Positions 601-3,944 of a DNA stretch of 50,190 bases are shown here, piece after piece. Numbering within the stretch: position 1 is the stretch's first letter; the number at the start of each line of letters is the position of its first letter. Source of the DNA: Actinomycetes bacterium (GTDB lineage Bacteria; Actinomycetota; Thermoleophilia; Solirubrobacterales; Solirubrobacteraceae); NCBI GenBank assembly GCA_021820105.1, contig JAKAED010000009.1, forward strand, positions 1 to 50,190. The letters run 5' to 3'. The notes beneath the pieces are model-generated. The model ran no database searches, was not told the origin of the DNA, and was given only the letters and a program-made list of their open reading frames with translations. The position numbers and the translations under genes are program-made.

Positions 601-1476
601 TCAGCCAGACAACCGCTCCGCGAACTCAAGCGCCTCAGCAAGCGTCGCGAAACTCAGCTGCGCCGTGTATCCGCGAGCTCCACCCCGCACCTTGACATCA
701 GCACCGAGGACCCTACCCAGCGCGTCGGCGATGCGGTCTACGGCCTCCTGCTGGTCAGGATGGCCATCACGCCTAAGGCCGGCGCCGCGTTCGCCCGTGG
801 AGGCGGGTGAGTCGCCAGCGGTCCGGGCCCGCGACTCAAGCTCCCGGACAGACCAGGCGTTCGCCACCGCCTGTCGCGCCAGATTCCGGCGCATCGCGTT
901 ATCGGCGACCATTAGCAGCGCGCGTCCGTGGCCCTCGCTCAGCTCGCGACGCTCGAGCAGCTCCAGCGCCTCGTCCGGAAGGTCAAGCAGCCGGATCAGG
1001 TTCGAAACCGCAACCCGGCTCCGTCCCACTCGCAGACCGACCTCCTCACGCGTCAGCCCGAGCTCCTCAACAAGGCCGGCGCAGGCTCGTGCTTCCTCAA
1101 CCGGATTGAGGTCCTCACGCGCCATGTTCTCAATGACCGCCAGTTCCAGCGATGCTGCGTCATCGTGGGTGCGAACGACCGCTGGAACAGCATCCAACTC
1201 AGCCATCTGCGCAGCCCGCCAGCGCCGCTCTCCGGCGATCAGCTCGTACCTTCCACCAGCAACCGGCCTGACCAAGACGGGCTGGATAACCCCGCGAGCG
1301 CGAATCGAGTCGGCCAGGCTCAGGAGCGATTCCTCATCGAACTGACGCCGTGGCTGGTGAGGGTTGGCGGTGATCAGATCCGTTGGGATCTGGCGGAGCT
1401 CCTCCTGATCGTCGCGCGGTGCGGCGGCCAGAATCGCGGCCAAACCCCGGCCCATCCCCTTGTTCTTCTCAGCCAC
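601..1476 (-). CDS. parB: ParB/Spo0J chromosome partitioning protein
   Basis: GERRWRAAQ and NPHQPRRQFDEESLLSLADSI motifs; overlaps the parA stop; GTG start at 1476 chosen over the upstream ORF start at 1518. Confidence 0.93.
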   Translation of the reverse strand: MAEKNKGMGRGLAAILAAAPRDDQEELRQIPTDLITANPHQPRRQFDEESLLSLADSIRARGVIQPVLVRPVAGGRYELIAGERRWRAAQMAELDAVPAVVRTHDDAASLELAVIENMAREDLNPVEEARACAGLVEELGLTREEVGLRVGRSRVAVSNLIRLLDLPDEALELLERRELSEGHGRALLMVADNAMRRNLARQAVANAWSVRELESRARTAGDSPASTGERGAGLRRDGHPDQQEAVDRIADALGRVLGADVKVRGGARGYTAQLSFATLAEALEFAERLSG

Positions 1477-2227
1477 GGGTGGCGACCTCCTTGGCCAGCT
1501 CGAAGTATGCGGCAGCACCCGCCGAGTGGGGATCGTGGTGAATCACGGGCTTGCCATAGCTCGGGGCCTCGCTGATTCGCACATTGCGCGGGATCACGGT
1601 GTCAAAGACCAGTTGTGGGAAGTGGCTGCGGATCTCATTCTGGACGTCCTGGGCAAGGCGCGTGCGGGAGTCATACATCGTCACGACCATTCCAGCGATC
1701 GTCAGCCGTGGATTGAGTTCCCGCTGGACCAAAGACAGGGTGTCCAGCAGTCCTGCAAGTCCCTCCAGCGCAAAGTACTCAGCCTGGACTGGCACAAGAA
1801 CTCGATCCGCCGCAACCAGCGCGTTGACGGTGAGCGGTCCCAGGGAGGGCGGGCAGTCCAGCAACGTGAAGGCGAACCGCTCACGAACCGTACGCAGCGC
1901 CTCCTTGAGGCGGTTCTCCGATCCGGGGATCCTCGGCAGCTCGACATTGGCGCCTGCCAGGTCCGGACTGGCCGGCGCCACCCATAGGTGGTCGATCGCG
2001 CTGGCGACAGCGACCTGATCGATGGTCGCCTCGCCACTCAGCAGCTCGTAGACATTCGGCTCGATGTGCTTCCCCAGACCGACCCCGACGGTTGCATTGC
2101 ACTGCGGGTCGATGTCGACCAGCAACGAGTCGTAGCCCGCTTCAGCGATGCACGCGGCAAGGTTGACCGCGGTGGTTGTCTTACCGACTCCACCCTTCTG
2201 GTTGGCTATTGCGTAGATGGCGCCCAT
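1469..2227 (-). CDS. parA: ParA/Soj chromosome partitioning ATPase
   Basis: Deviant Walker A KGGVGKTTTAVNLA; adjacent to parB. Confidence 0.95.
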   Translation of the reverse strand: MGAIYAIANQKGGVGKTTTAVNLAACIAEAGYDSLLVDIDPQCNATVGVGLGKHIEPNVYELLSGEATIDQVAVASAIDHLWVAPASPDLAGANVELPRIPGSENRLKEALRTVRERFAFTLLDCPPSLGPLTVNALVAADRVLVPVQAEYFALEGLAGLLDTLSLVQRELNPRLTIAGMVVTMYDSRTRLAQDVQNEIRSHFPQLVFDTVIPRNVRISEAPSYGKPVIHHDPHSAGAAAYFELAKEVATRG

Positions 2228-2311: not shown

Positions 2312-3025
2312 TCACGATCTTCCCAGTGGGCGCTTTCGTGCAACGCCGTCGCGTCGAGGAAACCGCTCCGGGGTCTCTGCGACCTTGACCACCACCTGTA
2401 GGTAGCGGTTCGTCGCGCTGGGGTACGGCTGAACCTTCCGCAGCTCACGCACCGCCATCCCAAGGACGTCCGCAGCAGTGTTGAGGGCCGCTTCTGAGCC
2501 GGGATCCAGCAGCCCGCACCAAGCGACCAGCGCGCCATCATGTCGGAGGAGTGGGGCCGCGTACTCTGCCACGACCTCAGGTGGAGCAAGAGCCCTGGCA
2601 GTGACCAGATCCATGGCGCCAAGGCCCTCACGCCAGGTCTCCGCGCGACCGTGAACGATCTCAACGTTCGGTAGTGAGAGCTCGGACACGGCCCTGCGCA
2701 TGAAGTCGCACTTACGGCGGTTCCCTTCTAGGAGCGTCACGCGAGCATTCGGGAGCGCCAACGCCAGGGGAATACCCGGGACGCCGGCACCTGAGCCAAG
2801 GTCGGCTATCCGTTCAGCGGACCGGACCAACTCCAGATCTAAGGCCACCAGTGAGTCCGCCAGGTGGTCGTCGTGAACGCGTTGTGGCTCACGCACCGTT
2901 GTTGGGGCAAACTCGTCGGTCGCCAGCAGAGCACCAAAGCGCCGCAGTTTCTCCAAGACATCGGCGGGCAAGTCAAACCGCTCCCCAAGCGCGCTCAACG
3001 AAGACGGGTCCAGAGCCTCAGTCAT
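2312..3025 (-). CDS. rsmG: 16S rRNA (guanine527-N7)-methyltransferase RsmG (GidB)
   Basis: DLGSGAGVPGIPLALALP SAM-binding motif; syntenic with parA. ATG at 3025 overlaps the stop of the upstream ORF. Confidence 0.9.
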   Translation of the reverse strand: MTEALDPSSLSALGERFDLPADVLEKLRRFGALLATDEFAPTTVREPQRVHDDHLADSLVALDLELVRSAERIADLGSGAGVPGIPLALALPNARVTLLEGNRRKCDFMRRAVSELSLPNVEIVHGRAETWREGLGAMDLVTARALAPPEVVAEYAAPLLRHDGALVAWCGLLDPGSEAALNTAADVLGMAVRELRKVQPYPSATNRYLQVVVKVAETPERFPRRDGVARKRPLGRS

Positions 3026-3389
3026 CCGCCCGCCCCTCGAGTCGGTTCCTTTCCCGCTGGATGAAGGCCCCGTAGCGCTCAACCATTTCATCCAGGCGCT
3101 GAGCCGCGTGGGCATCCCTGCCAGCAGTTAGCTCCGCCTCAAGAATTGGTAGGAGGTCATGTACCAGGACCTGTCCCCGCGCCATCCACTGGTAGTACGA
3201 GCGCCCACCATGGTTGTAGGGACCGTAGAGCTTCGACCTTGGGAAGCGCTCCATGAGCCATCCGAACAGCGCCTCATGCCGCGTATGCATGCGCAAGGTG
3301 ACCTGAGGTTGGCGGCCGTCGCCACCGAACGAGCCCTCGCCGATGAGTAGGCCCACAAGCAAGCCGCGGTCAAAGTCGTTGAGGCTCAA
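3018..3389 (-). CDS. Small LAGLIDADG-type (homing endonuclease-fold) protein, single motif
   Basis: LLVGLLIGEGSFGGDGRQPQVTLRMHTRHEALFGWLMERFPRSKLYGPY resembles the LAGLIDADG core (LxGLIxGEGSF...); TTG start; 8-bp overlap with rsmG. Confidence 0.75.
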   Translation of the reverse strand: MSLNDFDRGLLVGLLIGEGSFGGDGRQPQVTLRMHTRHEALFGWLMERFPRSKLYGPYNHGGRSYYQWMARGQVLVHDLLPILEAELTAGRDAHAAQRLDEMVERYGAFIQRERNRLEGRADD

Positions 3390-3451
3390 GCTGTTGAGGT
3401 TCTAGCGGGAACCTGTTTCACCGTCAAGAAAAACGTGAAACACCCACGTTT
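3390..3451 (-). promoter_or_regulatory. Predicted promoter of the LAGLIDADG-rsmG-parAB unit overlapping separated parS-like half-sites
   Basis: Minus strand: TTGACG-17 nt-TAGAAC-9 nt-TTG start; inverted 8-mers TGTTTCAC (3414-3421) and GTGAAACA (3435-3442); overlapping AAACGTG (3431-3437)/CACGTTT (3445-3451) inverted repeat. Confidence 0.45.
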
Positions 3452-3466
3452 GTCTACACGCTTCGC

Positions 3467-3937
3467 TCAGCCGCGCAGTGGGGCGACGACAAGTCGCCGG
3501 TTCGGCTCTTGGCCCTCTGAGTAGGTCTCCACATCGAAGCGCGTCTTCAGATATTCGTGCACCACCTTGCGCTCCTGCGCGCCCATCGGCTCAAGCGCGA
3601 CGGGCCGCCCCTCCCTGACCGCAGCCTCTGCTGCCTGATCAGCCACGGCCTCCAGGTGCTTCGCGCGCCGCTCCCTGTAGCCGGCCGCGTCCACGGTCAG
3701 CGGCTTGCGCTCGTCGACGCCGCGGAAGGCGATCCTGTACGCCAGGTGCGAGATTGCGTCAATGGTCTGTCCGTGATGGCCGATCAGCAGCCCCAGATCG
3801 TCACCCACAAACTCGGCTGACAGACCGCCATCTGCCTCCTCCACCACGACCTCTGCGTCCACCCCGACCGCATCGGCAATGGTCTCGAGGATCTCCTCCA
3901 GATGCTCGATCGTCTCTGAATCGCTCACGCCGCCCAT
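3467..3937 (-). CDS. jag: Jag/KhpB-type R3H-KH RNA-binding protein
   Basis: GLLIGHHGQTIDAISHLAYR (KH) and ERKVVHEYLK (R3H); follows yidC. Start set at ATG 3937. Confidence 0.9.
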   Translation of the reverse strand: MGGVSDSETIEHLEEILETIADAVGVDAEVVVEEADGGLSAEFVGDDLGLLIGHHGQTIDAISHLAYRIAFRGVDERKPLTVDAAGYRERRAKHLEAVADQAAEAAVREGRPVALEPMGAQERKVVHEYLKTRFDVETYSEGQEPNRRLVVAPLRG

Positions 3938-3944
3938 CCTCTCA

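Follow-up and report, generated by a model that had tools for sequence, protein, structure and literature searches.

Few regulatory DNA sequences of bacteria are as highly conserved as the parS site. Separated binding boxes are known from plasmid P1, where parS together with IHF forms a bipartite centromere and the boxes for the partition protein need an intervening DNA-binding protein. Here we describe a 29-bp element from a 50,190-nucleotide stretch of a Solirubrobacteraceae genome (assembly GCA_021820105.1, contig JAKAED010000009.1, positions 1 to 50,190; in the following, the window), in which the two halves of parS are separated by 13 bp and lie next to a gene for a small LAGLIDADG protein, LAG, and to the genes rsmG, parA and parB (Table 1). 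We regard it as an evenly balanced judgement that LAG and the split site form one module which has replaced the compact parS in the bacteria containing LAG (LAG+), that the split site is probably the centromere of their chromosomes, and that LAG likely bridges the half-sites for ParB. The gene-plus-site pair would thereby point to a version of the bacterial centromere that has not been described before.

Canonical chromosomal parS is mainly TGTTNCACGTGAAACA, and the ParB proteins of several species bind the half-parS heptamers GTTTCAC and GTTCCAC (PMC7022226). The split element shares with this site the convergent ParB half-sites (exact TGTTTCAC and GTGAAACA, both conserved), the T/C degeneracy in one half, and the location near oriC and parAB, since it lies between jag and LAG-rsmG-parA-parB with dnaA about 3 kb off. 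It differs from the uninterrupted 16-bp palindrome in that its halves do not abut but stand 13 bp apart, in the partial conservation of the spacer, and in being tied strictly to a LAGLIDADG gene. The likeness to P1 parS with IHF, consisting of separated boxes and an intervening DNA-binding protein, would hold if the mechanism favoured here is right, although the split element is chromosomal, its boxes are different, and the putative partner is a LAGLIDADG protein instead of IHF. LAG itself resembles homodimeric LAGLIDADG homing endonucleases such as I-CreI in its fold, in its single motif with an acid at the catalytic position and in the palindromic site expected for it, whereas it is found outside introns and inteins, is linked to parS and shows only remote sequence similarity to these enzymes. 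A LAGLIDADG domain outside selfish elements, with links to cell division and chromosome segregation, is also known from WhiA, a domesticated regulator of Gram-positive bacteria; however, WhiA binds GACAC via a C-terminal HTH domain and has lost the catalytic residues, while LAG has retained the acid and leaves no room in its short sequence for an additional HTH domain. The papers found to mention LAGLIDADG, parS and ParB together concerned Streptomyces and WhiA or an unrelated fungus, and a link between LAG and a split parS was not described there.

The split element and its co-occurrence with LAG

The original prediction had placed the two exact parS halves, TGTTTCAC (3414-3421) and GTGAAACA (3435-3442), 13 bp apart in the window, and the sequence bears this out. 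A scan of the window for gapped parS with up to three mismatches returned this element as the single match, and an exact one; as only 6 of 100 shuffled sequences gave any match at the same limit, it is well beyond chance. The further statement that no intact canonical parS is present in the window was likewise correct, compact TGTTTCACGTGAAACA being absent at up to three mismatches. The proposed genome-wide scan for compact and spaced variants extended this to the whole assembly (4.0 Mb, 264 contigs, 88.9% complete), which contains no compact site at up to two mismatches and a single occurrence of the gapped form (gaps of 0-30), namely the window element. A second inverted repeat claimed to overlap the element, AAACGTG (3431-3437) and CACGTTT (3445-3451), is present, but its right arm was not seen in the intergenic sequences of relatives, and it was dropped as a meaningful feature.

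LAG, the exact compact parS core and the split element were each searched for in the same 399 genomes of the class, many of which are incomplete metagenome bins. With at most one mismatch allowed, the split element occurs in all 52 LAG+ genomes, compared to matches in 22 of the 347 genomes without LAG (LAG-; Fisher, p = 5e-48). These 22 matches look like chance, because they mostly carry one mismatch and share no common spacer motif, and because control patterns scatter matches too. Beyond them, the class survey found no split element in LAG- lineages, as expected if the function of the element requires LAG. The exact compact core shows the opposite distribution, with 2/52 LAG+ versus 128/347 LAG- genomes of the class (p = 1.4e-7) and 2/50 versus 23/56 inside the family of the window (p = 5e-6); in both LAG+ genomes the compact site lies away from the parAB genes. 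A third compact site in a LAG+ bin (G027) is located on a contig with jag, rsmG and parA and without LAG (L252, G027:C230), which probably derives from a second genome contaminating the bin. In the ParA tree of the order sample, the presence of LAG requires five changes. A cultured species, Conexibacter arvalis DSM 23288 (locus L196), is among the LAG+ bacteria.

Phylogenetic footprinting of the parA loci of relatives, as suggested at the outset, shows that the half-sites are conserved and that the 29-bp element stands just upstream of LAG in most of the genus. In LAG- relatives, the corresponding jag-rsmG interval contains a compact parS that is exact or altered at one or two positions (G034, G035, G043, G046, G049, G052, G056 and G060). 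G010, a LAG- member of the genus of the window, even has three compact copies there, and in mixed genera with LAG+ and LAG- species the LAG- genomes have a compact parS beside jag. G007 and G026 carry the complete, intact element in inverted orientation relative to LAG. The initial view of the element as a diverged parS was right in its direction, because the half-sites are conserved and LAG- relatives have a compact parS in the same place, but it covers too little, as far more than one diverged copy is involved: judged from the sequences compared, the element is neither chance nor a single diverged site. An asymmetric sequence, GTTTCACGTTTTAC, occurs alone near parAB in the LAG- loci L105, L108 and L109 (family f4) and L283 (G241). 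In some split elements, the outer half together with the inner segment has this very sequence, which may be left over from a LAG module that was lost or may represent a different variant of parS.

Distribution across phyla and properties of LAG

A total of 226 LAG relatives were found in GTDB genomes, and the element and its spacing were examined in the best 80 of these loci, which include members of Acidobacteriota, Gemmatimonadota, Armatimonadota, Elusimicrobiota, Planctomycetota, Chloroflexota, Myxococcota, Binatota, Ignavibacteriota and Acidimicrobiales. The pair of LAG and split site spans about ten bacterial phyla. Among these 80 loci, an element with a 13-bp spacer occurs upstream of LAG wherever upstream DNA is present (it is cut off in L188 and L200; the elements of L233 and L234 have two mismatches), often in two copies, whose distance is variable in other phyla. 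When spacings of 0-30 were scanned, 13 alone recurred, besides overlapping or weaker near-matches. Most elements are found no more than about 215 bp upstream of LAG, mostly in one orientation, and some are located downstream of it (L167, L182, L191). The consensus of 103 elements is nGTTyCACGTknnwCnTnACGGTGAAACA. Half A matches the half-parS GTTTCAC/GTTCCAC and alternates between T and C across phyla at the position given as N in TGTTNCAC, and half C hardly varies; as the same pattern is seen in canonical parS, the element appears to be a parS opened at its centre. In 23 LAG+ genomes outside the family of the window, exact compact parS is absent, the element is present in 22 at up to one mismatch, and ParB is encoded in all 23.

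The position and strand of LAG around jag-rsmG-parAB vary among the loci, and in other phyla LAG is often located on the strand opposite to parAB or away from these genes. In L233 (Fimbriimonadaceae) and L237 (Elusimicrobia), LAG and the element are found at a distance from parAB, with unrelated genes as neighbours and the element still adjoining LAG; parB is about 36 kb from LAG on the same contig in the L237 genome and on a different contig in the L233 genome. Within the family of the window, LAG forms one clade and is therefore regarded as largely inherited there. Between phyla, LAG identities (55-62%) exceed those of ParA (52-58%), whereas within the family ParA is the more similar of the two (64% for LAG versus 75% for ParA), and the phyla interleave in the LAG tree. 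The higher identity between phyla and the interleaved tree indicate that LAG was transferred between phyla, with saturation of a short conserved protein as an alternative for part of the between-phyla signal. An origin from mobile elements was set aside, since LAG homologues were sought in phages, plasmids and viral contigs and found in none of them.

LAG is assigned to the LAGLIDADG fold by a confident AlphaFold2 model (pLDDT 96.4), with which Foldseek matched I-OnuI, I-CeuI, I-CreI and I-AniI at E values of about 1e-4. LAGLIDADG_2 and LAGLIDADG_3 of Pfam were matched below the cut-off only, and searches of the PDB and NCBIfam with the sequence gave no meaningful match. The residue at the catalytic position, at the end of the motif, is E in nearly all homologues across the phyla, an acidic residue as in homing endonucleases. 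The protein is strongly conserved across 25 relatives and is under purifying selection, with dN/dS values of 0.06 and 0.23 in the two closest pairs and values reaching about 0.47 among the listed pairs of greater divergence; no LAG pseudogenes were found in LAG- loci. Multimerising compact homing endonucleases, including LAGLIDADG homodimers, are restricted to sites of palindromic symmetry, and LAGLIDADG targets comprise at least 20 bp and bend near the centre (PMC3943268). LAG is accordingly expected to be a homodimer reading a roughly palindromic site of at least 20 bp. In the homologues of L202, L215 and L131, the E of the catalytic position is replaced by Q. One half-site of L202 also deviates by a mismatch, and in L131 (G029) the C-terminus no longer looks like that of its relatives and a third half-site is present, features that suggest decay.

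A proposed LAG-dependent centromere and its alternatives

In the proposed mechanism, parS would have been opened at its centre to give two ParB half-sites exactly 13 bp apart; a LAG homodimer would most likely bind across the spacer and bring the two half-sites together, so that ParB could load on them despite their separation. The constant spacing argues for a reader beyond the ordinary geometry of ParB and parS, while the binding of ParB and of LAG to the element and the architectural role of LAG are what we infer from the sequences. A more far-reaching version, which we consider somewhat less probable than its contrary, would make the LAGLIDADG protein an obligatory partition component and the centromere a parS opened by 13 bp, with the cassette moving between phyla and displacing ordinary parS, possibly by homing into it. 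If true, such recurrent replacement across phyla would demonstrate that centromeres of bacteria can change hands, and the split site would supply the missing parS of lineages seemingly without one; it also allows the dependence of ParB clamp loading on half-site geometry to be tested directly.

Several observations weigh against a centromere of this kind. All elements are close to LAG, which fits an operator or a cis-linked cassette too, and nearly all LAG homologues retain the catalytic acid, although a purely architectural protein would not need it. ParB carries no LAG-specific change at the known parS-specificity positions, which we take to be those from ParB/Noc work; an altered ParB as the cause of the altered site was rejected on the same finding. 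With its span of about 22 bp, a LAGLIDADG dimer might get in the way of ParB at the half-sites, and there could be compact parS copies that are too degenerate to fall within the mismatch limits. Finally, half A with the inner segment is only one or two mismatches from parS in some phyla and, as GTTTCACGTTTTAC also stands alone in f4 and G241, may be a ParB site by itself, the third half-site being added for LAG.

The strongest alternative, though an unlikely one in our view, regards LAG as an active freestanding homing endonuclease that cleaves compact parS on LAG- chromosomes and whose spread carries along an opened parS resistant to it (intronless homing), with ParB using the split site unaided. 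It stays alive because the catalytic acid is conserved across phyla and compact parS is lacking in LAG+ genomes, and it would also fit the apparent horizontal movement of LAG, its differing spots around parAB, and the position of the 13 bp at the centre of the dyad, where LAGLIDADG enzymes cut (4-base centre). Yet the fixed spacing and the partly conserved spacer require a reader, LAG is mostly vertically inherited within the family, and it was not found in phages, plasmids or viral contigs. The LAG-dependent centromere is favoured over pure homing mainly because a resistant site usable by ParB should outlive the loss of LAG, and no LAG- genome examined keeps one.

Still less probable is that the element serves as an autoregulatory operator of LAG, bound by LAG and/or ParB, in which parS half-sites are reused and the LAG promoter is covered. 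The minus-strand promoter-like sequence TTGACG-17-TAGAAC predicted to overlie the repeat is indeed present, but it is specific to this lineage: no more than about ten members of the genus keep the -10 hexamer, with 17-18 bp between it and the spacer hexamer. There it probably drives LAG, so that a protein occupying the element could repress the gene as well, and the location of almost all elements in the roughly 215 bp upstream of LAG, mostly in one orientation, agrees with such a role. The operator idea of the original prediction is possible to this extent, but the promoter is less conserved than the dyad, the element is inverted in G007 and G026 and lies downstream of LAG in some loci, other phyla usually have two copies at variable distance, and an operator would leave the LAG+ genomes without a recognisable parS. 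There is no sign of autoregulation of the partition genes specifically, as LAG in other phyla often lies opposite to or away from parAB; a promoter or operator of these genes was discarded as the main meaning, because the dyad and not the promoter is conserved and because of the two inverted cases. A chance inverted repeat or an ordinary promoter of the rsmG-parAB operon, for which the promoter-like hexamers in the window might speak, is highly improbable and was refuted as the main explanation by the conservation of the element at constant spacing in all LAG+ genomes and across phyla.

Features of the locus

The coordinates of the element and the surrounding genes are compiled in Table 1. Only about 6-10 bp separate the -10 hexamer from the LAG start codon that follows it (L077; 3389-3404 in the window), and this short distance suggests a leaderless LAG transcript.

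Table 1. Features of the split parS locus, in window coordinates.
Feature	Position	Strand	Remarks
29-bp split parS element	3414..3442	-	reads TGTTTCACGTTTTTCTTGACGGTGAAACA toward LAG; exact in sequence
Outer ParB half-site A	3435..3442	-	TGTTTCAC on minus strand; LAG-distal end
Half-site C	3414..3421	-	GTGAAACA on minus strand; LAG-proximal end; most conserved part by column counts
13-bp spacer	3422..3434	-	CGTCAAGAAAAAC; constant length, sequence partly conserved
-35-like TTGACG	3422..3427	-	inside spacer; hexamer varies in some relatives keeping the -10
-10-like TAGAAC	3399..3404	-	probably LAG promoter in this lineage
LAG	3018..3389	-	123-aa single-motif LAGLIDADG protein; motif LVGLLIGEG; TTG start
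rsmG (gidB)	2312..3034	-	Pfam GidB, 7.9e-35; start uncertain, open frame reaches 3115
parA	1469..2227	-	Pfam AAA_31, 3.1e-56
parB	601..1518	-	chromosomal Spo0J/ParB type; Pfam ParB_N and HTH_ParB; PDB Spo0J/ParB matches, 1e-49 to 1e-53
jag/khpB	3467..3940	-	upstream neighbour; KH and R3H domains (Pfam R3H and KH)

A gene for tRNA-Ile (anticodon GAT) is located 3' of parB at 340-414 on the minus strand, and the start of the contig carries a 45-nt direct repeat (1-45 and 61-105) whose copies are 96% identical and spaced by 60 bp.
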